From Rhodococcus triatomae (GTDB lineage: Bacteria > Actinomycetota > Actinomycetes > Mycobacteriales > Mycobacteriaceae): a stretch of DNA of 64,000 nt. The notes beneath the pieces were generated by a model, which saw nothing but the letters and a program-made list of their open reading frames with translations, had not been told where the DNA came from and searched no databases. The DNA is taken from assembly GCF_014217785.1 (NCBI RefSeq), contig NZ_CP048814.1, positions 2,914,001 to 2,978,000 on the forward strand, given 5' to 3'. The translations under genes and the position numbers were made by a program. Of the stretch, positions 6,141-27,883 are shown one piece after another. Positions within the stretch are counted from its first letter, which is position 1. Every line of letters starts with the position of its first letter.

Positions 6141-6141
6141 G

Positions 6142-10822: not shown

Positions 10823-11515
10823 GTGCACACGCCGACCGACGGTGCGGAACCGACGTATCCGCCGCTGCCCGCCACCAGCTGGGCCGTACTCGGCATGCTC
10901 GCGTTCGGCGAGGAACTGACGGGCAACGATCTCAAGAAATGGGTCGACTGGAGCGTCGGATTCTTCTACTGGAGCCCCTCGGTCAGCCAGGTGTACGGAG
11001 AGCTGAAGAAGCTCGAGACGCTCGGTCTGGTGACCTCGCACGTGGTGTCCGAACCGGGCGTCCGCGGCCGCCGTCTGTATGCGATCACCCCGGCGGGCAC
11101 CGACGCCGTACGGTCCTGGTCACGCGGTGCCCCGGTGGAGATCCCGGTGCTCAAGCACGGTGTGATGCTGCGGCTGTGGCTGGGGCACCTCAGTGATCCC
11201 GAACATCTCAAGTCGTTGGTGCGCGCCCACATCGAGAACATGCGCGAGCTCCGCGCCCGGGCGGCGTTGCACGCCGAGCACTCCACCCGAGAGCCGGCAT
11301 GGGCGTACCCGAGGATGAGTCTGCGCTGGGCGGTGCGCTACTTCGACGCCGAGATCGAGCTGGCGGAGCAGATGTTCGACGAGATCGACGAGGCCGCAGA
11401 GGCGTTCGCCGAAGCCCGGGTCGTCGAGGACAGCGGGCTACCGCAGCCGAACGACCCGGGCAGTTGGAAGACGGTCGAGGACATCGTCGAAGCGCTACAC
11501 ACCACCCGGAGCTGA
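10823..11515 (+). CDS. PadR-family transcriptional regulator
   Basis: A 230-residue regulator. The N-terminal winged helix (ATSWAVLGMLAFGEELTGNDLKKW through YGELKKLETLGLV) is followed by a basic wing (VRGRRLYAITPAG). A long helical C-terminal part, rich in Glu and Arg, should dimerise. PadR proteins usually repress a divergent operon and release on binding an aromatic or other small effector. The start is GTG. The divergent isomerase operon and the inverted repeats at 10729-10765 are its likely target. Its 3-prime end overlaps the convergent hydrolase gene by 21 bases. Confidence 0.88.
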   Translation: MHTPTDGAEPTYPPLPATSWAVLGMLAFGEELTGNDLKKWVDWSVGFFYWSPSVSQVYGELKKLETLGLVTSHVVSEPGVRGRRLYAITPAGTDAVRSWSRGAPVEIPVLKHGVMLRLWLGHLSDPEHLKSLVRAHIENMRELRARAALHAEHSTREPAWAYPRMSLRWAVRYFDAEIELAEQMFDEIDEAAEAFAEARVVEDSGLPQPNDPGSWKTVEDIVEALHTTRS

Positions 11516-13275: not shown

Positions 13276-13381
13276 GAGATCTCCTTTGCAGGCGCAACGA
13301 TGCAAAACCCTGTGACGTGGCTGTTTCGATTAGGAATAGTCTCACGATACCTGACGATTGTGAAGTGAGTCACGAAGAAAA

Positions 13382-13408
13382 CCCCGCGGTCCGTAGTGGA
13401 CCGCGGGG
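13382..13408 (-). terminator. Terminator of the kshA-hsaA-hsaC operon
   Basis: A perfect 11-base stem (arms 13382-13392 and 13398-13408) with a five-base loop lies 22 bases past the hsaC-like stop. On the minus strand it is followed by TTTTCTTC, a typical intrinsic terminator tail. Confidence 0.85.
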
Positions 13409-13429
13409 CTTTCTCCGAGTGAGGGTGGG

Positions 13430-14335
13430 CTACATCGCCGCGAGGGGTTCACTCCCTGACCAGTCGTGACCCCAGTAGGAGTCGGCGGTGATCTCCTCGG
13501 CCGAGTAGTAGTTCTCGTCGACCTTCATGCCCTCGGTGCCGAACTCGATGTCCCATCCACCGGGAGCACGGACGTAGAACGAGACCATCTTGTCGTTGGT
13601 GTGCCGCCCGAGTGTCGACGACAGCGAGAAGCCGTCCTTCAGGACCCGGTCGAGTGCCTGTCCCACCGCGTCGAGCGTGTCCACCTCGACCATCACGTGG
13701 ATCAGCCCGGGTGCGCCGCCGTGCGGCGCGGGGCACAGCGCCAGGCTGTGATGGCGCTCGTTGATGCCCATGAAACGGATTCGGACGGGGCCGAACTCGG
13801 GCGGAGCCGGGATGCGGAAGGCGCCGCGGGGGAGGAATCCCAGGACGTCGGTGTAGAACTCGAACGAGGCATTCGCGTCCAGCACCGGCAGGACGACGTG
13901 GCCGAGACCCTGGGCGCCGGTCACGAATCGCGCCCCGAACGGGGTGACGACCGGGCTGTGGTCGAGGACCGCGCCGTGGAAGACCTCGAGCGTCGTGCCG
14001 CCGGGATCCTGGAAGGTGATCACTTCCTCGACCCTGCGTGCGTCGGCCTCCTCGAGGGACAGCGGTTTGACGGCGACGCCGGCCCTCTCGACCGACTGGC
14101 GGACCCGCTCGAGCGCGGCGTGGTCGCGAACCTCCCAGCCCACGCTCACCACCTCGTCGCTGTCGCCGGGAACCACGACGATGCGGGCGGCGCGTTCGTC
14201 CATGCGGAGGTACAGCGCATTCTCGTCGGGCCCGTCGCCCTCGGCGAATCCGAGGACGTCGAACGCGAACGTGCGCCAGCGGTCCATGTCGGTGGTCTGG
14301 ATCTTGACGTAGCCCAGAGCTTTCAGATCGGTCAT
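13430..14335 (-). CDS. hsaC: Extradiol ring-cleavage dioxygenase, HsaC-like
   Basis: A 301-residue type I extradiol dioxygenase made of two vicinal-oxygen-chelate modules. The Fe(II) ligands are visible as His146 (GLGHVVL), His213 (IHVMVEVD) and Glu264 (WDIEFG); the acid/base His195, His245 and Tyr254 are also in place. It resembles the steroid catechol dioxygenase HsaC (cleaving 3,4-DHSA) as well as biphenyl BphC; the partner genes favour the HsaC role. It is last in the kshA-hsaA-hsaC operon, 96 bases after the hsaA-like stop, a gap filled mostly by a tandem repeat. The symbol means HsaC-like; it may be one of several paralogues with a different steroid specificity. Confidence 0.85.
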   Translation of the reverse strand: MTDLKALGYVKIQTTDMDRWRTFAFDVLGFAEGDGPDENALYLRMDERAARIVVVPGDSDEVVSVGWEVRDHAALERVRQSVERAGVAVKPLSLEEADARRVEEVITFQDPGGTTLEVFHGAVLDHSPVVTPFGARFVTGAQGLGHVVLPVLDANASFEFYTDVLGFLPRGAFRIPAPPEFGPVRIRFMGINERHHSLALCPAPHGGAPGLIHVMVEVDTLDAVGQALDRVLKDGFSLSSTLGRHTNDKMVSFYVRAPGGWDIEFGTEGMKVDENYYSAEEITADSYWGHDWSGSEPLAAM

Positions 14336-14364
14336 GTGCCTTGTCTTTCGTGTTTCGGTGTACG

Positions 14365-14442
14365 GGTGTGGTGGGTGGGCCAGATCATCGGGTGTGGTGG
14401 GTGGGCTAGATCATCGGGTGTGGTGGGTGGGCTAGATCATCG
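14365..14442. repeat. 26-bp tandem repeat (three copies) over the hsaA-like stop codon
   Basis: Three head-to-tail copies of a 26-base unit at 14365-14390, 14391-14416 and 14417-14442. The copy nearest the gene contains the last codons (Ser-Met-Ile) and the TAG stop of the hsaA-like gene; the other two repeat them in the intergenic space. The outermost copy differs by one base in the stop triplet. Confidence 0.95.
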
Positions 14443-15613
14443 AGCGGAGGGGGCCCTGCGGATCGGCGCCGAGCGAGCTCAGCGTCGTCGCGTGGAACAC
14501 CGTGCCCGGCACGTGGATCGCGTGGTGCAGGCCGGCATGCGCGTCCCGCCAGAACCGTTGCAGCGGCTTGTCCATGCGCAGGGCGTTGCCGCCGCAGCGC
14601 GGGTAGATCTCGTCGATGGCGCGGATCGCCTGCCACGCCGCGGACACCTGGGTGCGACGGCCGACGGCACGCTGCTCGAACGTCGGTGTGCGGCCGGAAT
14701 CCACGAGGTCCCACATCCGGTCGACCTGGGCGAGCAGGGAATCCCGCGCGGCCTGGAGGGAGGAGGTCGCCTCACCGATCGCGAACAAGGTGTAGGGATC
14801 GTCCTTGATCTTGGTGCCCTGGGCGTTGATCCGTTCGGCCTGGTACACGTTGGCCTGGTGCATCATTCCCTCGGCGATGCCGATCGTGGCGGCGGTGATG
14901 CCGAGCGGGAACATGGTGGACCACGGCATCAGGTACAGCGTCTCGGTGCGCCCGTACTCGCGGACCGCGGAGCCGTCGATCACCGCGTCGCAGTCCATCA
15001 CCCGGTATTCGGGAACGAAGGCGTCACGGACCACCAGGTCCTTCGAACCGGTGCCGCGCAGGCCCATCACGTCCCACGAGTCCTCGATGATCTCGTAGTC
15101 GCTGCGCGGGATGATCACGTGCAGCATCCGGGGCGGTTGCTCCATGCTGCCGTCCGGATTGCAGGCGAAGGCGCCCAGGAACGCCCAGTCGCAGTGATCG
15201 GTGCCCGAGGAGAAGGACCACTTACCGGAGAATGTGTATCCGCCGTCGACCGGAACGCACATCCCGCCCGGCATGTACGGCGACGCCATCCACGTGTCGT
15301 TGTCATGCCCCCAGATCTCCTCCTGCACCTTCGGGTCGGCGAACGCCAACTGCCAGGGGTGGACGCCGACGATGCCGTGCACCCACCCCGCCGACGGATT
15401 GAGCGACGCGGTGCGCATCACCGCCTCGGCGAACTCGCGCGGATGTACCTCGTAGCCGCCGTACTCCTTGGGCTGGAGCATCCGGATGCTGCCGGCATCC
15501 TTCATCCGCTTCGCGGTGGCGTCGGCCAGACGTCCGAGCCGTTCGGCTTCCTCACCCTCGACGAACAGGTCGTCGGCGACCTGGTCGAGCCGTTCCAGGA
15601 CTTCGTAACTCAT
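14432..15613 (-). CDS. hsaA: Flavin-dependent steroid hydroxylase, HsaA-like oxygenase subunit
   Basis: A 393-residue acyl-CoA-dehydrogenase-fold monooxygenase (group D). N-terminal helices lead to the flavin and substrate core (GKWSFSSGTDHCDWAFLGA; VMGLRGTGSKDLVV) and a C-terminal helical bundle (IYPRCGGNALRMDKPLQRFWRDAHAG holds the catalytic His region). In the steroid pathway HsaA with the reductase HsaB hydroxylates 3-HSA to a catechol, the substrate of HsaC. It sits between kshA-like and hsaC-like genes, 28 bases after the former. The required reductase gene is not adjacent but lies at 17923. Confidence 0.87.
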   Translation of the reverse strand: MSYEVLERLDQVADDLFVEGEEAERLGRLADATAKRMKDAGSIRMLQPKEYGGYEVHPREFAEAVMRTASLNPSAGWVHGIVGVHPWQLAFADPKVQEEIWGHDNDTWMASPYMPGGMCVPVDGGYTFSGKWSFSSGTDHCDWAFLGAFACNPDGSMEQPPRMLHVIIPRSDYEIIEDSWDVMGLRGTGSKDLVVRDAFVPEYRVMDCDAVIDGSAVREYGRTETLYLMPWSTMFPLGITAATIGIAEGMMHQANVYQAERINAQGTKIKDDPYTLFAIGEATSSLQAARDSLLAQVDRMWDLVDSGRTPTFEQRAVGRRTQVSAAWQAIRAIDEIYPRCGGNALRMDKPLQRFWRDAHAGLHHAIHVPGTVFHATTLSSLGADPQGPLRSMI

Positions 15614-15641
15614 GATCGTGCCTTCTTCTCGATGTGGCGGG

Positions 15642-16823
15642 TCAGCTCATGGGGGAGGCGATGGTGTTGCCGGAGGCGATGTTCTCGGCGACCTCCTGCT
15701 TCCAGCTGTCGACGGCTCGGGTCGTGTCGATCTCGAACTCGAAACGGTTGGTCATGTCGTCGGTGAGGTTCTCGACGTCCGTGTAGAACTGGCTGTACCA
15801 GCGGCGCAACTGGTAGACCGGCCCGTCCTCCTCGGAGAGGAGCGGATTGTCGATGGGCGCCTTGTTCTTCCAGATCTCGACGTCCTGCTCGAAACCCATC
15901 TCGACGCCTTCGGCGAACTGGGCGGCCATGCCGGCCGCCTCCTCCTCGGACAGACCGGGGAGCTTCTTGACGATGGCGCCGTACTGCAGCACGAACTCGT
16001 TGTTGCTCACCGGGTAGTGGCAGTTGATGAGGACGGTGTTGATGGTCTGGCCGTTGGCCTCGGATTCGAGCCAGTCGATCATGTAGGACGGCCCGAAGTA
16101 GGACGCCTCCGACTTCAGCACCGCGTTCGGATCGTCGTAGTTGGTGCCGCTGATGACGTCCTCGCGCCCGGTGGAGTTCATGTACTGGGTGGCGACGTGC
16201 CCCTCGAAGACGTTCTTGAAGTACCGGGGGAACGAGTAGTGGATGTAGAAGAAGTGGGCCATGTCCACGACGTTGTCCACGATCTCGCGGCAGTGGGAGC
16301 CCTTGATCCGAAGGGTCTTCCAGCTCCAGTCCGTCCACTCGTCGGTGCCGTAGCCCTCGATGTGCGGAATCGTGACGCCCTCCGGCGGAGGGTTGCCCTG
16401 CGGGTCGTGCCAGACGAACAGCTGCCCGTTGCGCTCGAGCGTCGTCCAGGCGCGGGTGCGGGCCAGCGGCGGGACACGCCGTGCGTACGGGATGGAACTG
16501 CAGCGTCCCTTGCCGTTCCAGCGCCAGTCGTGGAACGGACACGCGATGTCGTCACCCTTGACGGTGCCGCGGGCCAGGTTGCCACCCATGTGTCGGCAGT
16601 AGGCGTCCAGGACGTTGAGCGTTCCCGCACTGTCCGCGAAGACGACCAGCGAGGTGCCGAAGGCGTCGATCTGATGAGGTTGTCCGTCCGTGAAATCGCG
16701 GACCAGGCCGAGCAGATGCCAGCCCCGCGCGAAGCGGGTGGGCGCGGCAGCGGCCTCGATCATGCGGATCTCTTCGGCATCCGAAGCGGATCCGTGGACG
16801 GTGGTGGAAGTGGTGGGGGCCAT
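15642..16823 (-). CDS. kshA: 3-ketosteroid 9-alpha-hydroxylase oxygenase subunit (KshA-like)
   Basis: A 393-residue Rieske oxygenase. The [2Fe-2S] ligands are Cys76, His78, Cys95 and His98 (YCRHMGG through CPFHDW); the mononuclear iron is held by His190 and His195 (DMAHFFYIH) with a later acid. The N-terminal RFARGWHLLGL and the region after the Rieske site closely resemble KshA, which hydroxylates C9 of 3-ketosteroids and so opens ring B. A GGAGGA ribosome site precedes the ATG. Several KshA paralogues with different steroid ranges are known in one Rhodococcus strain; this may be one of them. The reductase KshB is not in the window. Confidence 0.88.
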   Translation of the reverse strand: MAPTTSTTVHGSASDAEEIRMIEAAAAPTRFARGWHLLGLVRDFTDGQPHQIDAFGTSLVVFADSAGTLNVLDAYCRHMGGNLARGTVKGDDIACPFHDWRWNGKGRCSSIPYARRVPPLARTRAWTTLERNGQLFVWHDPQGNPPPEGVTIPHIEGYGTDEWTDWSWKTLRIKGSHCREIVDNVVDMAHFFYIHYSFPRYFKNVFEGHVATQYMNSTGREDVISGTNYDDPNAVLKSEASYFGPSYMIDWLESEANGQTINTVLINCHYPVSNNEFVLQYGAIVKKLPGLSEEEAAGMAAQFAEGVEMGFEQDVEIWKNKAPIDNPLLSEEDGPVYQLRRWYSQFYTDVENLTDDMTNRFEFEIDTTRAVDSWKQEVAENIASGNTIASPMS

Positions 16824-16919
16824 CGGTGATTCCTCCGTGGTGCATCCGGGACTCGGTACATCCTGGACCCGAGCCTGTGATGTGGCTCATAATTCGCCAG
16901 GGTCGGTGCCGGGAGAAAC

Positions 16920-16956
16920 CCTCCCTCCCGCTGGGTGGAATGCCCGGAGGGAAGCG
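16920..16956 (-). terminator. Probable terminator after the fluoride-channel pair
   Basis: A GC-rich imperfect inverted repeat (CCTCCC near 16920 against CGGAGGGA near 16945) lies just past the stop of the downstream crcB gene. On the minus strand it is followed by TTTCTCC. One bulge is needed to pair the arms, so this is a moderate call. Confidence 0.5.
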
Positions 16957-16962
16957 TGATCG

Positions 16963-17328
16963 TCAGAGGGCCGTGACGGCCAGTCCGAGGGCGGCGGCCG
17001 CGGTGGTGACGAGCATCGTGCCGAGCGTGGCCGCGAGTGCGACGGTGAACTGCCGGTTCGCGATCAGCCGCACCGATTCGAGGCTCGCGGTGCTGAATGT
17101 GGTGTAGCCGCCGCAGAACCCGACCCCCACCACCAGGGTGACCTCCGACGGCGCGCCGTGGAACAGTACGAGGCCGGTGGCGATGCCGAGCAGCAGTGAC
17201 CCGCTGACGTTCACGACGACGGTGCCCCAGGGAAACGCCCCGGCCCACCGGGAACGGACGACGCCGTCGACGACGAAGCGCGCGACGGCACCGAGGCTGC
17301 CGGCCAGCGCGACCCACAGCGCGATCAT
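16963..17328 (-). CDS. crcB: Fluoride channel subunit, CrcB/FluC family
   Basis: A 121-residue protein with four membrane helices and the FluC family signature: GAVARF near the N-terminus, GTVVVNVSGSLLLG in helix 2, and GFCGGYTTFSTASLE in the helix 3 break, where the central sodium and fluoride path lies. Its start overlaps the stop of the first subunit by four bases. Two different short subunits encoded in tandem usually form a heterodimeric channel. Its job is fluoride export down the electrochemical gradient. Confidence 0.92.
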   Translation of the reverse strand: MIALWVALAGSLGAVARFVVDGVVRSRWAGAFPWGTVVVNVSGSLLLGIATGLVLFHGAPSEVTLVVGVGFCGGYTTFSTASLESVRLIANRQFTVALAATLGTMLVTTAAAALGLAVTAL

Positions 17329-17768
17329 CGGCGGGACCTGCGTTCGCGCGCGACGCCGGCGAGGACGATCCCCAGCGTGGCGGTGAGCAGCCCGAGCATC
17401 GCGGACCCTGCGAGATACCCGGCGGCGAGCCCGGTGTGGCCGTCCCGGGCGAGCAGATTCGTCTCCACCGCGAGAGCGCTGTAGGTGGTGAACGCACCGA
17501 GGAAGCCCGTCCCGCCGGCCAGTCGGAGGGTGCGCCGGCGTCCGGTGTCGTCACCCGCCGAGGCGAGCGATTCGAGGAGGATGCCGAGCAGGAACGCGCC
17601 GACGAGGTTGGCGACGAATGTCGCCGTCGGCCAGTGCCCCTCGGCCGGGGGAAGATGGATGCCGAGTTGGTAGCGGCACCACGTACCGAGCAGGCCACCC
17701 ACCGCGACGGCGGCGATCGCCGCCGGGCGCAGATGCAGTGGTCCCGGCGCGGGCGGCAACTCGGACAC
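17325..17768 (-). CDS. crcB: Fluoride channel subunit, CrcB/FluC family (first of pair)
   Basis: A 147-residue subunit with GGLLGTWCRYQLG, TFVANLVGAFLLG and GFLGAFTTYSALAVE matching the FluC helices; it carries a longer Pro-rich N-terminus than its partner. Translation starts at GTG, seven bases after GGAAGGAG. That ribosome site can pair with the end of the fluoride aptamer immediately upstream, so expression should depend on fluoride. The pair sits between the hsaB-like gene and kshA-like operon on the same strand. Confidence 0.92.
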   Translation of the reverse strand: MSELPPAPGPLHLRPAAIAAVAVGGLLGTWCRYQLGIHLPPAEGHWPTATFVANLVGAFLLGILLESLASAGDDTGRRRTLRLAGGTGFLGAFTTYSALAVETNLLARDGHTGLAAGYLAGSAMLGLLTATLGIVLAGVARERRSRR

Positions 17769-17775
17769 GGGCGCA

Positions 17776-17852
17776 CTCCTTCCGGTGGGAAAGGAGCCAT
17801 CAGCCTCGGGTGAGGCGGTTCGGGCAGGTGCCCCGGCGGAGATCCATCGCCG
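17776..17852 (-). ncRNA. Fluoride riboswitch (crcB motif) with ribosome-site switch
   Basis: Read on the minus strand, 17852 to 17790 shows the conserved fluoride aptamer elements in order: GGCGATGG, CTCCGCC closing the first stem, AACCGCC, then GGCTGATGGCTCCT. This agrees with the crcB motif as I recall it from the Thermotoga aptamer. The 3-prime end CTCCTTTCC (17796-17788) can pair with GGAAGGAG (17783-17776), the ribosome site of the first crcB gene, with one bulge and a four-base loop. Fluoride binding would hold part of that strand in the aptamer and free the ribosome site. Confidence 0.88.
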
Positions 17853-17922
17853 TCACGATTGTAGCCCGTGCGGTGTCGCTGCGTGCTGTGTCTCCGTGCG
17901 TGGTGTCGATGCGTGCCGGCGG

Positions 17923-18411
17923 CTATCCCTCGAACCGTCCGTACCCGCCGCGGTAGAACAGGAGTGGGCCGTCCTCGCGCAGGACCTCCAGGTTGCCGAC
18001 CCGGGCGACGACGATGGTGTGGTCGCCGGCGTCGTGCTCGTCCTCGACCGTGACCTCGATCCTGGCGAGTGCTCCGCTCAGCGCGGGCGCACCGTTTCCT
18101 GCTCTCGTCCAGTCGATGCCGGCGAACTTGTCGTCGCCGCTGGTCGCGAACGATGCGCATTCCGGGCGCTGGTCGTGGGCGAGGACGTTGATGCACAGGG
18201 TCCCCACCTCCCGCAGCCTCGGCCAGCTCCGCGACGTGCGTGCCGGGCAGAAGGACACCAGCGGCGGGTCGAGGGACACCGACGTCAGCGATTGGCAGGC
18301 GAAACCGAGCGGCACACTGCCGTCGTGTGCGGTGATCACCGTGACACCCGTGCAGAAGTTGCTCATGACGGAGCGCAGCAGGGTGGTGTCGAGTGCGGGC
18401 TCGAGCGGCAT
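17923..18411 (-). CDS. hsaB: Flavin reductase component, HsaB-like
   Basis: A 162-residue FMN-binding split-barrel flavin reductase. CTGVTVITA, GFACQSLTSVSLDPPLVSFCPARTSRSW and the C-terminal PLLFYRGGY closely match HsaB, the reductase that supplies reduced flavin to HsaA. The ATG at 18411 follows GGGAAGG; a longer frame begins at 18573 but its extra N-terminus looks non-coding. It is separated from the hsaA-like gene by the fluoride-channel pair. The KstR-like box at 18620 lies in the region upstream, shared with the divergent acyl-CoA ligase gene. Confidence 0.85.
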   Translation of the reverse strand: MPLEPALDTTLLRSVMSNFCTGVTVITAHDGSVPLGFACQSLTSVSLDPPLVSFCPARTSRSWPRLREVGTLCINVLAHDQRPECASFATSGDDKFAGIDWTRAGNGAPALSGALARIEVTVEDEHDAGDHTIVVARVGNLEVLREDGPLLFYRGGYGRFEG

Positions 18412-18619
18412 TCTGGTCCTTCCCGGAGGGTGCATCACCTCACCGTCCCCGATCCCCCGGTCCGGGCCAAGGTGGCGTCTCGCTGGTCGGGAGGCTGCCC
18501 CTGCCACGCCCCCTGCCATGGCAGCGCTCTCCGGTTCGTGTCGGCGCACCCCCGACCGAAGGTGCGCCGACACCGACCGGGGAGCGTCCGGAGGGTCTCC
18601 ACGGCAACCCCCGACTGTA

Positions 18620-18633: not shown

Positions 18634-18728
18634 AGTTTTGGGCAGAAGCGGCTATCGTGTCGGTGACCTGGAACACACGAGGGTGGCGCCCGGTCGGCGC
18701 CGCGCGAGGCACGAAGGATGGCATCGAG

Positions 18729-20318
18729 ATGAGCGTTGACTCCGTCACCGGAAACGACCTGTACAGGCCCGCATATGCGCCGGACCTGCTCATCGCCGCG
18801 CTCGAACGCAACCTCGACCGGCCCGCCCTGTACCTCGGTGACGTGGTGCTCACCGGTGGGCAGATGCGCGACCAGATCAGCTGTTTCGCCCAGGCGCTCG
18901 CCTCGCTCGGCATCACCACCGGGTCGAGCACGGCCATGCTGTCGAAGAACCGTCCGGAGGTGCTCATCAGTATGGGCGCCACCATGATCACCGGCTGCCG
19001 GGCCAGTGCGCTCAACCCGATGGGCTCGCTCGACGACCATCTCTACATCCTCGACGACGCCGGGATCGAGACGTTGATCTTCGACCCCACCGCGTTCGAG
19101 GGCCGGGCGGCCGAGCTGAAAGAGGCCGCCCGCTCGGTGAAGAACGTGTTGTCGTTGGGTCCGTCCGAGGTCGGTGTCGACGTCCTGGCGCTGGCCGCGA
19201 CGTTCACCCCGGCGCCGCTGCGGTCACCGGACGTGTCGGCCGACGACGCCAGCAGCATGGTCTACACGGGTGGAACCACCGGAAAGCCGAAGGGCGTCGT
19301 GCTCACCTACCGCTCCGGGGCGACGCTCAACCAGATCCAGATGGCCGAGTGGCAGTGGCCGGACGAGCCTCGATTCCTCATCTGCACCCCGCTCTCGCAC
19401 GCCGGCGCGGCATTCTTCATCCCGACCCTGCTGCGCGGCGGCTCCCTCTACGTGCTGCCGTCCTTCGAGCCGGGAGCCGTGCTCGAGGCGATCGAGAAGC
19501 ACCGCATCACCGCGACCATGCTCGTTCCGACGATGATCTATCTCCTCATGGACCATCCCGACCTGGCGTCCCGCGACGTGTCGAGCCTGGAGACCCTCTT
19601 CTACGGTGCTTCCGCCATGTCGCCGGCCCGGTTGCGGGAGGGAATCGAGAAGTTCGGCCCGGTCTTCTTCCAGTTCTACGGGCAGAGCGAATGCGGAATG
19701 ACGATCGCCGTGCTGCGTCGGGAGGAACATCTCGCGGACGACCCGGCCCGCCTGGCCACCTGCGGCCGACCGGTGCCGTGGCTGGACGTCCGGCTGCTCG
19801 ACGACGACCTGAACGAGGTGCCGCAGGGCGAACTCGGCGAGATCTGTGTGCGCGGCCCCCTCGTGATGCGCGAGTACTGGAACAAGCCGGACGAGACCGA
19901 GGCCGCTCTGCGCGGGGGCTGGCTGCACACCGGGGACGTCGCCCGCCGGGATCGCGACGGCTTCCTGACCATCGTCGATCGCAAGAAGGACATGATCGTC
20001 ACCGGCGGGTTCAACGTGTTCCCCCGGGAGATCGAGGACGTCATCTCCGCACACCCGGCGGTCGCCTCGGTCGCCGTCGTCGGTGTGCCGGACGAGAAGT
20101 GGGGCGAGGCGGTCAAGGCCTGCGTGGTCCTGCGCGAGGGGGGACAGGTGGCCGCCGAGGAGCTCGTGGAGAAGGTGCGGGCCGCGAAGGGCAGTGTGCA
20201 CGCACCGAAGTCGGTCGATTTCGTGGAAACTCTGCCACTCACGCCGTTGGGCAAACTCGACAAGAAGACCCTGCGCGCCCGCTACTGGGCGGGCGCGCAG
20301 GGTCGACTGGTCGGCTGA
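18729..20318 (+). CDS. Acyl-CoA synthetase (AMP-forming, FadD-like)
   Basis: A 529-residue ANL-family ligase. The P-loop-like motif YTGGTTGKPKG, the A5 motif FYGQSECGM, the adenylate-binding GWLHTGDVARRD, the hinge RKKDMIVTGGFNVFP and the C-terminal catalytic Lys in PLTPLGKLDKKTL are all present. It activates a carboxylic acid as an adenylate and then a CoA thioester. The start is the ATG at 18729, with AAGGATGG upstream; the frame is open from 18657. The KstR-like box suggests a steroid-derived acid, for example a side chain or ring fragment. The last codons form a perfect hairpin. Confidence 0.85.
   Translation: MSVDSVTGNDLYRPAYAPDLLIAALERNLDRPALYLGDVVLTGGQMRDQISCFAQALASLGITTGSSTAMLSKNRPEVLISMGATMITGCRASALNPMGSLDDHLYILDDAGIETLIFDPTAFEGRAAELKEAARSVKNVLSLGPSEVGVDVLALAATFTPAPLRSPDVSADDASSMVYTGGTTGKPKGVVLTYRSGATLNQIQMAEWQWPDEPRFLICTPLSHAGAAFFIPTLLRGGSLYVLPSFEPGAVLEAIEKHRITATMLVPTMIYLLMDHPDLASRDVSSLETLFYGASAMSPARLREGIEKFGPVFFQFYGQSECGMTIAVLRREEHLADDPARLATCGRPVPWLDVRLLDDDLNEVPQGELGEICVRGPLVMREYWNKPDETEAALRGGWLHTGDVARRDRDGFLTIVDRKKDMIVTGGFNVFPREIEDVISAHPAVASVAVVGVPDEKWGEAVKACVVLREGGQVAAEELVEKVRAAKGSVHAPKSVDFVETLPLTPLGKLDKKTLRARYWAGAQGRLVG
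20267..20304. terminator. Hairpin inside the 3-prime end of the acyl-CoA ligase gene
   Basis: A perfect 16-base inverted repeat (20267-20282 and 20289-20304) with a six-base loop. It lies within the last codons of the ligase gene, which ends two bases from the convergent globin gene. It probably serves as terminator for both strands, although no T-run follows. Confidence 0.55.
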
Positions 20319-20320
20319 CG

Positions 20321-21142
20321 TCAGGCCGTCGCGGCGACCCCGTCGGCCGTGACGGGGCCACCGAACGGCAGGGACACCGTCAGCTCGGCGCCCTCGGACA
20401 CGTGATCGATCAGGAAGTTCGAGACCTCTCCGCGCAGTGACGGTGTCCCGTCCTCGAGGGTGCTGTCCGCGACACGTCGGACGGTGAACGCCCAGACTCC
20501 GTCGGTGGTCACCGTGTCGAGCGGGTACTGGCGGATCTGGCGGGCCCCGTCCGGAAGCTGAGCCGCCACCGAGATGTACTGTCCCGGCTGGAAATCCGGG
20601 AGCGGAGAGCCATCGGCCGCGGCCAGGGTGAAGGACACCCGGTCCTCGGAGCCGGAGCGTGCGGACACCACGGCGCCGCGCCAGACGTCGCCGGCGGACA
20701 CGCCCGCTGCCTCGTAGAGACCCGCCTCCGCTGCGATGAGGGTGCGGGCGAACAACCAGTACAGCTCGTCCCAGGCGGCCGCGACCTCGGGCGTGACGGC
20801 CTCGCCGAGAACCTCGACGATCGCCTCGAAGAGGTACTTGTGCACCACGTCGTAGGACTCGGCGGCGACGCCCAGCGACGCATGCTTGTTCGCGATCCGG
20901 CTCACCGTCGCATCGATCTTGTCCTGGTCCGGCTCGACCTGGAGGGTCGCGAACGTGGCGATCGCCCCGGCGAGAGCCTTCTGCTGCTGTCCCTGCTGGT
21001 TGCCGCGATTGAACAGGTTCCGTTCGAGGTCCGGGGCAGCGGCGAACAGCTTCTCGTAGAACAGGGGCGTGATGTCTCCGATCGCTCCGCCCACGGCGGG
21101 CAGGGTGGCGCGGATGACTTCCTTCGACTCAACCGACAACAT
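20321..21142 (-). CDS. Flavohemoglobin-like protein lacking the NAD domain (globin-FAD)
   Basis: A 273-residue protein. Residues about 1-138 are a globin with flavohemoglobin features: Tyr in FYEKLF (B10), Gln-rich E helix, proximal His in NKHASLG followed by Tyr in ESYDVV, and Glu in AAEAGLY. A FAD-binding barrel follows (PGQYISVAAQ, RQIRQYPL). The chain stops where the NAD-binding domain of Hmp would begin; Hmp is near 400 residues. On this strand the next sequence is antisense to the ligase gene, so no domain remnant is left. The ATG at 21142 follows GGAG; an ATG at 21172 directly abuts the previous stop. Without an NAD site it would need an outside reductase. Confidence 0.85.
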   Translation of the reverse strand: MLSVESKEVIRATLPAVGGAIGDITPLFYEKLFAAAPDLERNLFNRGNQQGQQQKALAGAIATFATLQVEPDQDKIDATVSRIANKHASLGVAAESYDVVHKYLFEAIVEVLGEAVTPEVAAAWDELYWLFARTLIAAEAGLYEAAGVSAGDVWRGAVVSARSGSEDRVSFTLAAADGSPLPDFQPGQYISVAAQLPDGARQIRQYPLDTVTTDGVWAFTVRRVADSTLEDGTPSLRGEVSNFLIDHVSEGAELTVSLPFGGPVTADGVAATA

Positions 21143-21172
21143 CGGGCAGTCTCCATTCGGTGAAGGCAACAT

Positions 21173-21919
21173 TTACATTTCGGCACTGGGATGCCGGGAT
21201 TGTGTGGAGACCTCCGGGGGAAGCGTCGCCAGCAGCGCGTGCAGCTGCGCCTGGGCCAGCTGCGCGCAACTCCGCACGTATTCGAGTTCGGTGGTCGTCG
21301 GTCCCGAAGCGCCGGAGGCGAGCCCGTTGCCGGAGACCCTCGACAGCGCCTGCGCCCGCTGGAGAATTTCCTGGAACTGGGCACGCGCATTCATGACGAG
21401 GTCGCGGGCGTACTTGTCGGCGTCGGCGATCGTCTGATCGGCGGTGCGCTGGGCCTGGCTGAGGAGATTGACCGCGCGTGACGAGATGCCCATGAGGTCC
21501 TTCTCGGATTCCTTGCGCAGGCGCTCGTTCTCGCGTTCGAGTTCGTCGAGCCGTTGCAGCAGGTCGTTGCCGGGGGCGGGGCGTGGCTGCGGTGCGGGAG
21601 GCGGCGCTGGTGCAGGTGCAGCCTTGCGTGCTGCGAGTTCGGATTCCAGATCCCGCACCCGCGCACGCAGTTCGCCGACGACCTGGTGCTGGTCGGGTGT
21701 GGGCGGGGCCTCCTGCGGGGGCACCGATTCGCTGCGCGCAGGTCCCGGGCGGGGCGCAGGCGGCTGTGGGGACTGGTGCTGTTGTGCGCGGATCAGATCG
21801 TCCATGGCGAGGGCGACCTCGTCGAGGAAGTCGTCGACCTCGCCCATGTCGTATCCGTGACGAAGGAGGGAGGAACTCTTGAAGACGACGGTACGTACGT
21901 CGTCGGGTGTTATCGCCAC
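21173..21919 (-). CDS. DivIVA-domain coiled-coil protein
   Basis: A 248-residue protein with an N-terminal DivIVA domain (VAITPDDVRTVVF, then HGYDMGEVDDFLDEV). A Pro- and Gln-rich linker spans about residues 50-115, and a long coiled coil (ELERENERLRKESEKDL onward) covers about residues 115-220. DivIVA/Wag31 proteins bind curved membrane at cell poles through this N-terminal domain and recruit partners. This is not in the usual Wag31 context (no sepF or yggT neighbour). The GTG start lies ten bases inside the end of the upstream flavohemoglobin gene, so they are coupled, and the truncated globin gene follows. A scaffold placing the globin-flavin proteins at the pole is a tempting inference. 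Confidence 0.82.
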   Translation of the reverse strand: MAITPDDVRTVVFKSSSLLRHGYDMGEVDDFLDEVALAMDDLIRAQQHQSPQPPAPRPGPARSESVPPQEAPPTPDQHQVVGELRARVRDLESELAARKAAPAPAPPPAPQPRPAPGNDLLQRLDELERENERLRKESEKDLMGISSRAVNLLSQAQRTADQTIADADKYARDLVMNARAQFQEILQRAQALSRVSGNGLASGASGPTTTELEYVRSCAQLAQAQLHALLATLPPEVSTQSRHPSAEM

Positions 21920-23103
21920 GGATGCACCTCGAGTGAATTCGTCGTTCCGGACGGTATGGCGGTTCGCGTCGAATCGGACGGAGCAGCCGGCGCGAAGTCC
22001 TCGTAGCTGATCGATTCGGGGTCGAGGCCGACACGGGTCAATTCGCCTATCGTGTGCTCGACCATCGGGGGCGAGCCGCACACCAATGCGGTATAGCCTT
22101 CCCACCAGTACATTTCGGCGGCGACGGTGCCGACCAGTCCGCGGTGACCGGCAAAGGTCGGATCCTCCGAGACCACGGGAACGTAGGTGAACCACTCCCG
22201 GCTGCTCATGTGGGTCAGATAGTCGTGGTCGTACAAATTGGCACGATTGCGCGCACCGTGGAAGAGCAGCACGTTGGGGGCGCCCCCGGACGTCCCCCAC
22301 CGTTGGTCGAGTTGCTGGATCACCGCGCGTAGCGGCGCCAGTCCGGAGCCGCCCGCGATCAGGAGCAGATCGCCGCACGTGTCCGGATCGATGGTGAGGC
22401 GATTACCGATGGGCGCACCGAGTTTCACGCTGTGACCCGGCACGAGGTCGCGGGCGATCGCGCCGGTGACCTGGCCTCCGGGAATCACCTCGATGTGCAG
22501 TTCGAGCACGCCGTCCGGCCGAGGGGCGGCGGCCGGACTGACATAGCGCCACTGCCGCGGGCGCTGCGGGACCTCGATCGCCATCGACTGACCGGGCCGG
22601 TAGCGGAACGGGATCCGCGGCTGCAGCTCCACGAGGACGAAGTCGAGTCCCTTGCGCTGGACGGACACGACGTCCGCGTCCCACCAGGGAGGAGTGTCCT
22701 TCTCGGCGTCCGCGGCCGCGGCGACCATCAGCCCGGCGACGGCCTCGTACGCCGCTCCCCAGTCGGCGGCGAGCTCGGGCGTCCAGGCGTCGCCGTGGAA
22801 GTGTTCGAGCGTCGCGAGCAGTGAGGCACCTGCGGCGGGGTAGTGCGCTGCCACCACGCCGAACCGGCGGTGGTCCCGGCCGAGGTGCTGGACGAACGAC
22901 GGATCGTCGCCGAGGGACTCGACATTCGTGACGATGTGCCCGAGCGCGGCGAAGAAGCGATCCCGCTGGGTGGACATGGACACCGGGAACATGTCGCGCA
23001 CTTCGGGATGGGCCAGGAACAGGTGGGAGTAGAAGTGCTGGATCGCGTCGTCGCCGATCTCGACGACGGCGCGCCAACTCGCCTGTAGCGCGGAAATGTT
23101 CAT
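21910..23103 (-). CDS. Three-domain flavohemoglobin (type II-like)
   Basis: A 397-residue protein: globin (about 1-135; proximal His in GRDHRRFG), FAD barrel (PGQSMAIEVPQ, RQWRYVSPA) and NAD domain (LLIAGGSGLAPLRA, VCGSPPMVEHT). The order matches Hmp, but the globin and the WRYVS flavin motif resemble the second, mycobacterial type of flavohemoglobin (such as Rv0385, from memory), whose activity differs from classical nitric oxide dioxygenase. The ATG at 23103 is chosen because the globin homology begins there; no good ribosome site is seen. The 218-base gap upstream probably holds a promoter. A C-terminal tail of about 20 residues is unusual. Confidence 0.85.
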   Translation of the reverse strand: MNISALQASWRAVVEIGDDAIQHFYSHLFLAHPEVRDMFPVSMSTQRDRFFAALGHIVTNVESLGDDPSFVQHLGRDHRRFGVVAAHYPAAGASLLATLEHFHGDAWTPELAADWGAAYEAVAGLMVAAAADAEKDTPPWWDADVVSVQRKGLDFVLVELQPRIPFRYRPGQSMAIEVPQRPRQWRYVSPAAAPRPDGVLELHIEVIPGGQVTGAIARDLVPGHSVKLGAPIGNRLTIDPDTCGDLLLIAGGSGLAPLRAVIQQLDQRWGTSGGAPNVLLFHGARNRANLYDHDYLTHMSSREWFTYVPVVSEDPTFAGHRGLVGTVAAEMYWWEGYTALVCGSPPMVEHTIGELTRVGLDPESISYEDFAPAAPSDSTRTAIPSGTTNSLEVHPWR

Positions 23104-23321
23104 CGGCGCCGGATCGACCCGGAGGTGGCATCGGTACGCGCACGACGCTCGCGCGTAGAGAAGCTCCGGGCCATGGCACAACCTTCCGCTCGAAAACCGA
23201 CTGGACGTAAGAACGAGAGTTAATCGGTATCGGTGCCCGATGGCAAGTTGGGAGAACCGATTTCGGGTTGCCCGGTCGTCGCTCGGACACCGGGTCGGTG
23301 ACGCAGCGCGAGCGTGGCGGC

Positions 23322-24065
23322 TCAGTACGGGTCGTACTGGATGTTCTCTGCGGGAGTGCCCGTCGCGTACAGGCGATCCAGGGTGGTGCGCACCATCGCC
23401 GCCGACCCGCACACGAGGACCTGTTGCTCGACGAACGCGCCGTAGGACGTGACGACGTCGGCGAGTGTGCCCTGCACCAGATCCTCGTCGCCGAACCCGA
23501 CATCGACGCGCAACTGTTCGTGCCACTCGTCCGGGGTGTGCGGATCCTCGAGGGACTCGACGACCGGGACGACGGTGAGCCAGGGCAGATGCCGTAGCAG
23601 CAGGCAGAGCATGTCCGCGGCATACAGGTCACGCGGATGGCGGCCACCGATGAAGAGGAACACCTTCGGTGGATCGTCGTGCCTGGCGAGGTCGAGCAGC
23701 ATCGAGCGGAACGGTGCGAGCCCGGTCCCGCCTGCCACCAGGACGACGTCGGGCCCGGCCGGATCGATCGCCATCGTTCCGCGTGGCGGGTGGATCTCCC
23801 AGCGGTCGCCCACCCGGGTGTCCTCCACGATCCCGCTGCTGACCCACCCACCGGGAACGGTCCGCACGTGGAACTCGAGCTTGCCGTCGCGTGACGGGGG
23901 CAGCGCGGGGGACAGCCGGCGCAGCAATTGCGGATGCTGTGGGACGGACACGTCCACGTACTGGCCGGGTCGGAACGGTACGAAGTCCCCGACCAGCCGG
24001 ATCACCGCGAGGTCGCGCCTCAGCCGGTGGTGTTCGACGACGGTCGCGGACCAGGTCTGCTCCAT
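23322..24065 (-). CDS. FAD/NAD-binding oxidoreductase without globin domain
   Basis: A 247-residue protein consisting of only the ferredoxin-reductase-like part of a flavohemoglobin: FAD barrel (PGQYVDVSVPQ, then LRRLSPA) and NAD domain (VLVAGGTGLAPFRSM, IGGRHPRDLY, LVCGSAAMV). The flavin motif RRLS lacks the Tyr found in RxYS of typical members. It is strongly related to the C-terminal two thirds of the adjacent flavohemoglobin at 24154, for instance sharing GGRxPRDLY and the segment about LTVVPVxE, so a partial duplication is likely. It could be the electron donor for the NAD-less globin at 20321. Confidence 0.83.
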   Translation of the reverse strand: MEQTWSATVVEHHRLRRDLAVIRLVGDFVPFRPGQYVDVSVPQHPQLLRRLSPALPPSRDGKLEFHVRTVPGGWVSSGIVEDTRVGDRWEIHPPRGTMAIDPAGPDVVLVAGGTGLAPFRSMLLDLARHDDPPKVFLFIGGRHPRDLYAADMLCLLLRHLPWLTVVPVVESLEDPHTPDEWHEQLRVDVGFGDEDLVQGTLADVVTSYGAFVEQQVLVCGSAAMVRTTLDRLYATGTPAENIQYDPY

Positions 24066-24153
24066 GCCGGGATCATACTGGCGCCACGGAGCGACGCAGC
24101 TCGAGCGCCCGGTCCCGGTGACATCGCACAACGCCGGTGCGGCGGCATTCGTG

Positions 24154-25341
24154 TCAGACGAGGGGGTCGTGCTGGATCAGTTCCGGTGGAGTGCCCCCGT
24201 GTCGCAACGAGTACACGGTGGTCTTGATCATCGAGGGAGACCCGGAGATCTGTACCTGGCGGTCCGCCCAGGAACCGAACTCGGCGACGACGCGGCCCAG
24301 CCGCCCGTGCAGCCGACGATGCATCCCGGGTGGGGGTTCGGGGTCGGGAGTGGTGTGCCACCAGGGGTTCTCGTCTTCCTCGGAGACCGGGACGACGGTG
24401 AGCCACGGATTGCTCAGGGATAGCTCCCAGAGGGCTTCGATGTCGTAGAGATCGCGCGGGTAGCGGCCGCCGACGAACATGTGCACCCGCGGGTTGTTGC
24501 CGTGCTGCGCCATCTCCATCACCTGCGCCCGCAGCGGCGCGATCCCGCTTCCCGACCCGATCATCAGCACGTCGAGCCCGTTGTCCCGATCCACCTCGAG
24601 CCCACCGAGCGGGGAGGCGAGCTGCCAGCGGTCGCCTACCCGGGTCTCGTTCACGATGGCCGGGCTCACCCATCCGCCGGAGACCCGGCGCACGTGGAAC
24701 TCGATCTGGCCGTAGGGGTTCGGTGGGATCGCCACCGACAGGTAGCGCCACTGCCTGGGACGCTGTGGAATCTGGACGCTGAGGTATTGGCCGGCGTGGA
24801 ACGGGATCGGCTGGTCGGACTCGAGGCGCACGATCGCGAGGTCGTCGAGCCGGCGTTCGTGACCGACCACGGTCGCCGTCCAAGCGGCGGGCAGATCGTC
24901 CGCGTCCGCGGCGTCGCGCATGGTGGTGAGGAGCAGGGAGACGAGCCCGCTCCACGCCGAGTCGAGTGTGGGCGTCCACAGCACGTGGCTCAGGGCCGAC
25001 CGCACCGCGGCGATCAGTGCCGATCCGGCCGCTTCGTAGTGCCCGGCGGTGATGCCGTACTTGCGGTGGTCCCGGCCGAGCTGGGCCAGCAGTTCCGTCA
25101 TCGGGCCCGGCTCCTCGAGATTGTCCACGACGAACTCGAGGGCCCGGGTGAACTTGCGAGCCGGTTCCTCCAGGGAGATCGGGAACAGCGCCCGGTACTG
25201 CGGGTGCTCGGAGAACAGCGCCGCGTAGAAGAGCTGGGCCAGGTGGGACGGCCCGTGGGAGCCATGGGTGATCGACGAGAAACTGGCCCGCAGCTGCGCG
25301 ATCTCCATCGCGCTCAATCGTGCGGCCGCACGATCGGTCAC
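24154..25341 (-). CDS. Three-domain flavohemoglobin (type II-like), second copy
   Basis: A 395-residue protein: globin (proximal His in GRDHRKYG, followed by Tyr in GHYEAAG), FAD barrel (AGQYLSVQIPQ, RQWRYLSVA) and NAD domain (LMIGSGSGIAPLRA, VGGRYPRDLY, ISGSPSMIKT). It is the first gene of the globin-flavin group. The GTG at 25341 is preferred for its GGAAGG ribosome site; GTG at 25377 gives a longer form. It resembles the copy at 21910 in all three domains but is clearly diverged. Its likely substrates are oxygen and either NO or an organic electron donor; the type II class is not well assigned. Confidence 0.85.
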   Translation of the reverse strand: MTDRAAARLSAMEIAQLRASFSSITHGSHGPSHLAQLFYAALFSEHPQYRALFPISLEEPARKFTRALEFVVDNLEEPGPMTELLAQLGRDHRKYGITAGHYEAAGSALIAAVRSALSHVLWTPTLDSAWSGLVSLLLTTMRDAADADDLPAAWTATVVGHERRLDDLAIVRLESDQPIPFHAGQYLSVQIPQRPRQWRYLSVAIPPNPYGQIEFHVRRVSGGWVSPAIVNETRVGDRWQLASPLGGLEVDRDNGLDVLMIGSGSGIAPLRAQVMEMAQHGNNPRVHMFVGGRYPRDLYDIEALWELSLSNPWLTVVPVSEEDENPWWHTTPDPEPPPGMHRRLHGRLGRVVAEFGSWADRQVQISGSPSMIKTTVYSLRHGGTPPELIQHDPLV

Positions 25342-25450
25342 TCCGCCTTCCGTGTCCACCGGGCCCCCTGTACTCACCGCCGTCGTTCACCGCGTCCGCT
25401 CGTGAACTCTCACCAACCGTTCCGCTCGCGGACTCGGAGAAAGTCTAGCG

Positions 25451-25528: not shown

Positions 25529-27883
25529 CTACTGCGCAGGCCCGAGGTCCAGGAAGACCGTCTCGCCGGTCGCGTCGTCGAGCCCGTCGTTGTCGGTGAC
25601 CACGTACAGGTTCCCGTTCCCGGCGACGGCCACGCCCTCGGCCTTCTCCTGCACCCAGCCGCGGGTGGCCCGCAGATCCGGCGCCAGGTCGCGGTACAGC
25701 GTCTTCGGAAGGACCGTCACCTCCTCGTCGGCGCCGGTCACGCCCGATTCGGTGGGGATCTCCACCCGGTGGATCGCCTTGATCCGGGCGGCGGGGCCGT
25801 TCAGCTTGTCGCGTTCGAGGATCAGCAGCGCGCCGTCGTGCACCGTGATCTCGGACAGTCCGATCCAGTCGCCGTCGACGTCGGTCGGGTCGAGCTGGTA
25901 GCCGTACCACTGCCACCCGCCGTCGGCGGGCGTGTACCGGCCGATGCGCGCGACACCCGGCGGGTCGGTGTCCAGTTCGCGCTGCAACACCACCCAGACG
26001 GTCTCGTCGTCGCCGCTGCCCTGCACCGACACGCCTTCGAGGCCCTGGCTGCCGAGCGCGGCGCCGATGTCGTCCGGGAGGCCGATGCGTTCCTCGATCG
26101 CGCCGTCCTCCGCCACTCGGAGCAGCGCGTTCTCCGGTCCCTCGGCTCCTTCGACGGCGAGGTAGAAGCCGCCGTCCCGGCGGGCCGCGACCCCTTCGAT
26201 GTCGAGAGTCAGCGGCTGTCCGTCCTCGGTGACCGCGATTTCCCGGTCGATCAGTGCCGGGGTCTGTGTGAGATCGATGCCGAGGACGCGGGCCGGGCCG
26301 TAGGCGTCGTCGGTGGCGGTGAACAGGCGGTCGGGATCCTCCGGGTCGACGGACAGCGCGCCGAGGGCACCCCACCCGACCGGGAGTCCGTCGACGTCAC
26401 CGGAGACCAGTGACGGGAAGGCCGGGGAGCCCCCGGCTGCCGCATGCTCCTCACCCCAGCCGTAGAGGGTCACCGAGGCGCGGACGCCGGCCTCGGCATC
26501 GTCGACCTCGGAGGAAATCGCCAGCAGGTTCCGCTCCGGGATGGCCAGAATGCCCTCGGGGCCGTTGGTGGCGGGCAGGATCTGCCGGAACTGCGGGTCG
26601 GTGGGATCGCTGACGTCGTAGACGGCGACGAAGTTACTGCGCTCGGATCCGACGAGTGCCACCGGACGCCCGTCGAGTTCGGTGATCGTCAGCCCCTCCG
26701 GTTCCGGCCCCTTCGCCTCGGCGCGGCCCTCGTTGTGCAGACCGGTGCGGACCGCGAGATGGGAGAACTCGTTGCCGCCGTCCCAGACGAGGTCCCCGGT
26801 CGCGGCGTCGAAGATGGACCAGTTGCGAGTGCCGCCCTTCCAGTCGCCCTCGTTGGCGGTTGCGAGGTACCGGTCGCCGATCCACCCGATCGCATCGGGC
26901 TCGCGGGGCAGGTCGGTGATCGAGCCGGTCTGGTCGATCACCCCGTCCTCGACGGTGTCGATGTCCTCGACGCTCGCGGTACCGGCCGAGAAGAGGGACG
27001 TCACCTCGCCGGTGGGTCCGTCGATCACGGCGATGCCGTTGTTCTCCTGGAGGGTCACCGCGATCTCACCACGATCGTTGACGTCGACGTACTCGGGTTC
27101 GAGGTCCTCGGGGGTGTCCAGTCCGGCCGCGCGCGCCTGGTCGACGTCGAAGTCGACGCGCCGGGTGGTCCACGCCTGCGGCTCACCGGTGAGGTCGACG
27201 ATCTGGACGAACCCGGTCGGCGGCTGCGGGAGGTCCCCCTCCTCGCCGCCCTCGGGGGTGAAGTCCTCGTCGCGCTGGTTCTCGATCGCCACCGCGGCGA
27301 ACGTGCCGTCCGGGCTCAGTGCGATCGAGTCGGGCTGGCCACCCAGGTCGATGCTGTGTACCCGCGTGCGGTCCGCGATGCGCACGACGTCTACTCGCCC
27401 CGACGGCGCGGTGAAGTCGCCGCCGGTGGTGTCGACCACCACGAGGACGAAGTCCTGGTGCACGATCACCGACGTGGGCTGATCGTCCGCATTGCCGAGT
27501 TCGGTGAGGGAGAGCGTGCCGAGTCCGCGCGGCGTCGACGGGTCGGAAATGTCGAGGAAGCCGATCCGCTGTGCCGTCGCGTCGGTGTAGATCATCGTGT
27601 TGCCGTCGGGCGTGACCGAGGAGATCTCCGCGACCGTTTCGGTGTCGATCGGCTCACCCTCGGGGCGGTTCTCGAAGATCGGGTAAGTCGCGAGCCGGTG
27701 GTAACGCTGTGGATTCTCCACGTTCCACTCGATCGGCGCGGCCGTCGCGGTGGTGATGTCGTTCGACGAGGCGACCGACTCCTGCTCGCTGCTCGCGCAT
27801 CCTGCCGCGAGCGCGGCAACGGCCCCTGCCGCCACCGCTACCGTGCCCGCGCGTCGTCGCGCCCGGCCTGTCCGTCTCGTCAC
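25529..27883 (-). CDS. Beta-propeller lipoprotein with esterase-like domain
   Basis: A 784-residue secreted protein. A twin-Arg-rich N-terminus and the lipobox LAAGC give a lipoprotein signal. The N-terminal half looks like a seven-bladed propeller with repeats such as SIALSPDGTFAAVA. The C-terminal 350 residues resemble the esterase-like domain of the phytase family (GDVDGLPVGWGALGALSVDPED; DIEGVAARRDGGFYLAVEG; EKAEGVAVAGNGNLYVVTDNDG). The combination is known in secreted actinobacterial proteins, but the substrate is unclear; phosphate release is a family-level guess. The GTG at 27883 follows GGAGGA by eight bases. The open frame continues to 29011, antisense or out of frame to the two-component genes, and is not coding there. 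Confidence 0.75.
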   Translation of the reverse strand: MTRRTGRARRRAGTVAVAAGAVAALAAGCASSEQESVASSNDITTATAAPIEWNVENPQRYHRLATYPIFENRPEGEPIDTETVAEISSVTPDGNTMIYTDATAQRIGFLDISDPSTPRGLGTLSLTELGNADDQPTSVIVHQDFVLVVVDTTGGDFTAPSGRVDVVRIADRTRVHSIDLGGQPDSIALSPDGTFAAVAIENQRDEDFTPEGGEEGDLPQPPTGFVQIVDLTGEPQAWTTRRVDFDVDQARAAGLDTPEDLEPEYVDVNDRGEIAVTLQENNGIAVIDGPTGEVTSLFSAGTASVEDIDTVEDGVIDQTGSITDLPREPDAIGWIGDRYLATANEGDWKGGTRNWSIFDAATGDLVWDGGNEFSHLAVRTGLHNEGRAEAKGPEPEGLTITELDGRPVALVGSERSNFVAVYDVSDPTDPQFRQILPATNGPEGILAIPERNLLAISSEVDDAEAGVRASVTLYGWGEEHAAAGGSPAFPSLVSGDVDGLPVGWGALGALSVDPEDPDRLFTATDDAYGPARVLGIDLTQTPALIDREIAVTEDGQPLTLDIEGVAARRDGGFYLAVEGAEGPENALLRVAEDGAIEERIGLPDDIGAALGSQGLEGVSVQGSGDDETVWVVLQRELDTDPPGVARIGRYTPADGGWQWYGYQLDPTDVDGDWIGLSEITVHDGALLILERDKLNGPAARIKAIHRVEIPTESGVTGADEEVTVLPKTLYRDLAPDLRATRGWVQEKAEGVAVAGNGNLYVVTDNDGLDDATGETVFLDLGPAQ

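Follow-up and report, generated by a model that had tools for sequence, protein, structure and literature searches.

A flavohaemoglobin gene joined to a DivIVA-type gene, with a companion globin, in Rhodococcus triatomae and other actinobacteria

Introduction

This report concerns a gene module of Rhodococcus triatomae in which a flavohaemoglobin gene (FHb2) is followed directly by a gene for a DivIVA-domain protein (DIV). The module lies in a 64,000-nucleotide stretch of the genome (positions 2,914,001 to 2,978,000 of contig NZ_CP048814.1, referred to here as the window, with coordinates counted from its first nucleotide), within a run of five minus-strand genes at 20321-25377; the genome itself is a single contig of 4.77 Mb. 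Among the closest described systems are the type I flavohaemoglobins known as Hmp (PDB entries 1gvh and 1cqx), which share with FHb2 the globin-FAD-NAD architecture and the residues Tyr B10, Gln E7, His F8 and, for the most part, Tyr G5. FHb2 differs from these proteins in that it scores 107.6 bits against the NO-inducible (nitric oxide-inducible) flavohemoprotein equivalog of NCBIfam, which has a cut-off of 432, falls outside the Hmp branch of our tree, and overlaps a DivIVA-type gene. Type II flavohaemoglobins are represented by Rv0385 (MtbFHb), which, compared by position alone, has surroundings near clpB similar to those of two other genes of the run, the flavohaemoglobin gene FHb1 and a gene for a globin-less reductase (RED). 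Rv0384c (clpB) is the neighbour of Rv0385. Unlike this group, FHb2 sits in a branch apart from FHb1 and is linked to DIV. MtbFHb is reported to be membrane associated in a passage of PMC8883573.

For DIV, the nearest described proteins are Wag31 and other members of the DivIVA family; the alignment with them takes in the N-terminal domain, the coiled-coil part and the C-terminal stretch. The layout of the DIV model is also alike: a section of PMC12393619 describes the same succession of N-terminal domain, linker and helices for actinobacterial Wag31. DIV differs in that it scores below the Wag31 cut-off and is located in a globin operon of a genome that keeps a genuine Wag31. A further likeness is offered by HGbRL (PDB entry 3wfw), a globin-Roadblock/LC7 fusion in which a protein of the globin superfamily is joined to a nonenzymatic localisation or switch module and which is called a putative globin-coupled sensor in a passage of PMC4476040; HGbRL, however, is one fused chain and has no DivIVA domain. 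Each of these protein families is known, and in the open-access papers searched we found no account of a DivIVA paralogue combined with a flavohaemoglobin and a second globin in one system, although mention elsewhere is possible.

The FHb2-DIV pair across actinobacteria

FHb2, the core of the module, lies at 21910-23103 on the minus strand and encodes 397 amino acids with the Pfam domains Globin, FAD_binding_6, and NAD_binding_1 (for the Pfam scan, the frame was taken from 23109). DIV, at 21173-21919 on the same strand, encodes 248 amino acids from a GTG start (Pfam DivIVA, 6.4e-10) and begins within the end of FHb2, giving an overlap of 10 nt. The initial annotation of this DNA, made from the sequence alone, had listed five minus-strand genes in the transcription order FHb1, RED, FHb2, DIV, and a globin-FAD gene (the Hmp-type gene of this report), with a DivIVA-type gene overlapping a flavohaemoglobin gene. 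All five are present as open reading frames whose Pfam domains agree with that description, and the overlap is that of DIV and FHb2.

In 40 nonredundant loci, DIV is the next gene after FHb2 on the same strand. Their frames overlap in 36 of these loci (by 4 nt in 24 and by 10 nt in 12) and are separated by 2, 3, 5, and 62 nt in the remaining four. The 40-locus set omits L183 (the same locus as L059), L045 (without FHb2), L058 (DIV missed by the gene caller), L216 and L217 (found later), and L038-L042 (whose genomes were represented already); 3 of the 40 loci come from two assemblies of Nocardia amamiensis. For the class as a whole, a profile of six DIV proteins was searched against 394 genomes. 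Among the class-wide matches listed, all 16 that cover the C-terminal block only (starting at position 91 or later) adjoin FHb2, and none of the 16 that start at position 1 (L125-L134, L136, and L138-L142) has a globin in its short flanks; the latter look like Wag31. Likewise, among the FHb2 matches listed for the 394 genomes, DIV lies beside FHb2 in all 21 genomes with the best scores (at least 394 bits), and the next match (G156, at 385 bits) has no DIV. The pair therefore occurs in at least 21 of the 394 class genomes, distributed over seven families (f1, f2, f4, f19, f29, f31, and f39), with Rhodococcus, Nocardia, Antrihabitans, Nocardiopsis, and Actinomadura as named carriers.

A scan of named genomes gave 69 loci. 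Globins were looked for in 35 of them (L044-L078); the matches of the other 34 fall within the first 99 residues of the query. DIV is matched broadly in 22 of the 35, and 21 of these have FHb2 directly before DIV; the remaining broad match, L045, lacks FHb2 and is immediately followed by a truncated haemoglobin. In the remaining 13 of the 35, the match is confined to the N-terminal part of DIV (up to residue 158), and no globin is present. Within the genus, FHb2 was found in 4 of 28 genomes, in all four cases with DIV after it, and relatives carrying the cluster include Rhodococcus sp. HNM0569 (L057) and a Rhodococcus metagenome-assembled genome (L058). In one genome from another class of the phylum (G581), FHb2 lies at a contig edge with the DIV side beyond the contig.

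Some variants of these genes were seen along the way. In Antrihabitans cavernicola, a second DIV copy (L045/L041) is followed by the truncated haemoglobin gene with no adjacent FHb2, and an FHb2 copy on another contig (L042) is broken into two pieces. At L192 (5556-7265), an FHb2-like protein of 569 amino acids has a long proline-rich C-terminal tail and no DIV neighbour. In three Actinomadura loci (L065, L070, and L073), an inverted repeat, GGTTCTC...GAGAACC, was seen by eye just before the operon start; it is possibly an operator or a leader hairpin.

In a tree of 69 flavohaemoglobin rows, the 40 DIV-linked flavohaemoglobins form one branch (support 98/90) together with a single extra row, L208. 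This FHb2 branch is separate from both the FHb1 branch and the Hmp branch. The label of DIV linkage requires 2 changes on the tree, compared with a mean of 22.4 in shuffles, and the linkage has a single origin on this tree. Pairwise distances among FHb2 proteins correlate with those among DIV proteins (r of 0.92), a value reached in 0 of 1,000 permutations.

Features of FHb2 and DIV

FHb1 and FHb2 each hold globin, FAD, and NAD domains in one chain. Of the residues inspected in the 40 DIV-linked FHb2 proteins, TyrB10, GlnE7, HisF8, and the FAD arginine are present in all 40 and TyrG5 in 38; for Glu H23 of the proximal side, 16 of the 40 proteins have a glutamate in the alignment column chosen, the placement of which is uncertain. 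Because the haem-pocket, FAD and NAD residues that were checked are kept, FHb2 should be a working haem-flavin enzyme. Against the NO-inducible flavohemoprotein equivalog, FHb1 reaches 74.7 bits. The C-terminal tail of FHb2 was considered as a DIV-binding peptide and set aside, as the tails vary in length and sequence; on our reading of the codons, the terminal tryptophan of some tails arises from the frame overlap.

The DivIVA domain model TIGR03544 is found in all 40 DIV homologues. Compared with structures, the DIV profile matched the N-terminal domain of Wag31 (PDB entry 6lfa; E value, 3.4e-10) as well as DivIVA N-terminal domains, and hhalign matched both of its ends to those of the Wag31 encoded in the same genome (probability, 99.4). 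Against the Wag31 equivalog of NCBIfam, which has a cut-off of 260, DIV scores 54.4 bits, and a separate, genuine Wag31 of the same genome scores 385.6 bits. DIV is a Wag31 paralogue. In its structure model (mean predicted local distance difference test score of 76), the N-terminal domain is confident as far as about residue 49 and is followed by a weak linker and then by long helices. The tip of the N-terminal domain is basic, with Arg20 in 35 and Arg21 in 34 of the 40 homologues. DIV is a separate gene in all 40 loci, unlike the output domain of a globin-coupled sensor, which shares one chain with the globin.

The companion globin

A second globin gene on the same strand, at position -1 or +2 relative to the FHb2-DIV pair, is present in 35 of the 40 loci; 20 of these companions are truncated haemoglobins, 12 are single-domain globins, and 3 are Hmp. 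In two further loci (L050 and L051), an upstream truncated haemoglobin on the same strand was detected by tblastn only, at distances of 0.3 and 1.1 kb, bringing the total to 37 of 40. Companion type and place together require at least 6 changes on the FHb2 tree, and type alone requires 4, when rows without a companion are left out; with those rows included, type and place require 8. Given these repeated changes of type and place, unrelated globins appear to have replaced one another in the companion slot.

In the window, this slot is occupied by the Hmp-type gene (20321-21142, minus strand), which encodes 273 amino acids with Pfam globin and FAD domains and no NAD domain. The NO-inducible flavohemoprotein is its best NCBIfam model (191.1 bits against the cut-off of 432). 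Its sequence ends immediately past the FAD domain. A convergent AMP-binding ligase gene (18657-20318, plus strand; Pfam AMP-binding) lies 2 bp away, marks the edge of the truncation, and is outside the module. Locus L216 (genome G537) has the same order as the window, FHb1-RED-FHb2-DIV-Hmp-ligase. Its Hmp has 407 amino acids, includes the NAD domain as well as those for globin and FAD, and stops 11 bp short of the same ligase gene. In L038, the Hmp has 413 amino acids, and the same ligase lies 2.3 kb from it. The third other Rhodococcus locus with the cluster, on a contig of a metagenome-assembled genome, shows no Hmp directly after DIV, and the contig ends 0.5 kb later. Since its relatives in L216 and L038 are full length, the former with the same gene order and ligase, the globin-FAD protein of the window is most simply read as an Hmp deletion product and not as a specialised design. 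The tempting idea of complementary parts, in which one protein lacks the NAD site and another lacks the globin, accordingly fails.

FHb1 and RED as a separate group

FHb1 (24154-25377, minus strand; Pfam globin, FAD, and NAD domains) is drawn from its first start codon at 25377, and a later start is possible. RED (23322-24131, minus strand; Pfam FAD_binding_6 and NAD_binding_1) is without a globin and probably starts near 24065. For comparison, 20 control loci were fetched around flavohaemoglobins, 10 of them from the family of the window. In 7 of these 10, RED lies beside a flavohaemoglobin without DIV, and in 4 of the 10, two flavohaemoglobin genes and RED occur together, so that the earlier premise that bacteria usually carry one or two flavohaemoglobins, unlinked, does not hold in this family. 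The fetched stretch of 6 of the 10 includes a gene of 848 to 858 amino acids, which we read as clpB because the copy in L197 starts like the ClpB that Pfam identifies in the window. That gene (32328-34880, plus strand; Pfam Clp_N, AAA, and ClpB_D2-small) lies 7 kb from the cluster, outside the module, and serves as a landmark of the FHb1-RED group. On the 69-row tree, FHb1 groups with the non-DIV, clpB-near flavohaemoglobins of the genus (support 100/98). FHb1-RED is thus an older, family-wide group, often near clpB, as its occurrence with clpB in control loci of the family indicates; FHb1 is assigned to type II, as Rv0385-like, by position, Rv0385 not being among the rows of the tree.

No gene for a DivIVA-domain protein adjoins the flavohaemoglobin in any of the 20 control loci. 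The DIV profile gave weak matches in two of them. The match in L197 is an HspR-type regulator, a chance coiled-coil match, and that in L208 comes from a coiled coil that lacks a DivIVA domain. Only 19 of the 20 controls are true outsiders, because the L208 flavohaemoglobin falls inside the FHb2 branch. In L208 (G240), a gene for a coiled-coil protein of 209 amino acids (6128-6757) occupies the place expected for DIV. In L197, an HspR-type heat-shock repressor gene (3189-3605; 148 bits, above the cut-off) adjoins RED-FHb1, with a clpB-like gene on the opposite side, and the FHb1-RED group may lie in a heat-shock neighbourhood.

The five-gene cluster is therefore a composite, in which an FHb1-RED pair stands beside a conserved FHb2-DIV(-globin) module, and its new part is FHb2-DIV. 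RED is placed outside the module because its partner is FHb1, and the two occur as a group in loci that have no DIV. Of the two neighbours whose conservation beside the globins the initial annotation had named as its test, the DivIVA-like gene is so conserved, as FHb2-DIV in seven families, and the reductase is tied to FHb1 instead. A five-part complex with complementary missing domains was rejected, as Hmp is full length in 2 of the 3 other Rhodococcus cluster loci and FHb1-RED exist without DIV.

Surrounding genes

Directly upstream of FHb1, the window encodes a phytase-like/choice-of-anchor I protein (25529-27835); a different gene takes this place in L038 and L216. On the other side, a minus-strand run at 11495-18438 encodes an alpha/beta hydrolase, an IclR regulator, an extradiol dioxygenase, an acyl-CoA dehydrogenase-like protein, a KshA-type Rieske oxygenase, CrcB, and a flavin reductase, and looks like part of a steroid-degradation cluster. 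A role in antiphage defence was considered and dropped, the five proteins of the cluster having no PADLOC match. Plasmid cargo is likewise unsupported, with no plasmid match for DIV.

Discussion

We tentatively favour a reading in which a DivIVA-type scaffold holds FHb2 and the companion globin together as a membrane-sited NO-dioxygenase or haem-redox unit. DIV would bind the membrane or septum via its N-terminal DivIVA domain, self-assemble through its coiled coils, and hold FHb2 and the companion globin at that site. The NAD(P)H-FAD domain of FHb2 would keep its own haem reduced, and possibly that of the companion too, and the assembly would guard a zone of wall growth. We infer coupled translation, a physical complex, a location at the membrane or pole, electron transfer to the companion, and NO as substrate; the Wag31-like build of DIV makes a polar complex plausible. 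It is possible, if rather doubtful, that a dedicated DivIVA-type scaffold builds a haem-flavin patch at growing poles or septa, tying local removal of NO and oxygen, and redox, to wall growth. A passage of PMC2323109 describes haemoglobins in general as limited in NO scavenging by their re-reduction in vivo and concludes that NO scavenging would be open to any haemoglobin that is re-reduced, with cognate reductases to be sought.

Several observations weigh against a scaffolded unit. Conserved neighbours may share regulation without contact, and the correlation of FHb2 and DIV distances partly reflects common descent. L208 lies inside the FHb2 branch, yet its next gene has no DivIVA domain, and in Antrihabitans a DIV stands beside a truncated haemoglobin without FHb2. 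The distribution is patchy, the pair occurring in at least 5 of 151 family genomes and in 4 of the 28 of the genus, and three of the 40 loci (L043, L044, and L049) show no companion globin in view. No common upstream operator was found in the 40 loci, where DosR-like and CRP-like sites appeared once each, a loose AAC..GTT pattern four times, and the other patterns never. The DIV model represents one chain and has a predicted template modelling score of 0.33. Membrane anchoring of DIV is also not assured, because septal recruitment by the Wag31 N-terminal domain is reported, in a passage of PMC12393619, to be independent of membrane binding.

A gas sensor for growth polarity would account for some of the same features: the globins would report oxygen, NO, or redox state, DIV would be the output that alters Wag31 assembly or polar wall synthesis, and FHb2 would reset the haem by reduction. 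Because DIV is a paralogue that coexists with a genuine Wag31, mixed assemblies of the two are possible, and HGbRL provides a case of a globin fused to a localisation or switch domain. We nevertheless regard such a sensor as unlikely, given that FHb2 retains the catalytic-type residues tested and that the unrelated types of companion globin are easier to understand if the companion is an exchangeable enzyme or carrier than if it is a tuned sensor. Another reading is a DIV that merely clusters the enzymes for electron transfer from FHb2 to the companion globin, with cell location irrelevant. The reductase that FHb2 has and single globins are without, the second globin in 37 of 40 loci, and the mostly helical DIV of the structure model would all fit. 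This we judge improbable, as the DivIVA N-terminal domain of all 40 homologues, with its basic tip, is hard to explain without binding to the membrane or septum.

Operon neighbours often act apart, as is generally known, and the genes could form a co-regulated stress operon of physically separate products, in which DIV protects or remodels the poles and the globins remove NO or oxidants. We give this account little weight in view of the frame overlap in 36 of 40 loci and of the FHb2-DIV order, which is constant over seven families while the surrounding genes differ. The same conserved order refutes, for FHb2-DIV, the idea that flavohaemoglobin genes and an unrelated DivIVA-domain gene came together by accident, an explanation that can hardly be credited for the pair; it does hold for the five-gene composite, FHb1-RED being found without FHb2-DIV in 7 of the 10 same-family controls.

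For the actinobacteria that carry it, the conserved FHb2-DIV(-globin) unit suggests an oxygen- or NO-handling enzyme fixed at a particular place on the membrane. If a haem-flavin patch of the kind described above exists, the cytoskeleton of the cell pole would position a haemoglobin system and perhaps read it out. FHb2 would be a candidate partner for single globins, whose reductases are often unknown, and the module would link the chemistry of NO and oxygen with the machinery by which polar-growing bacteria site their growth.

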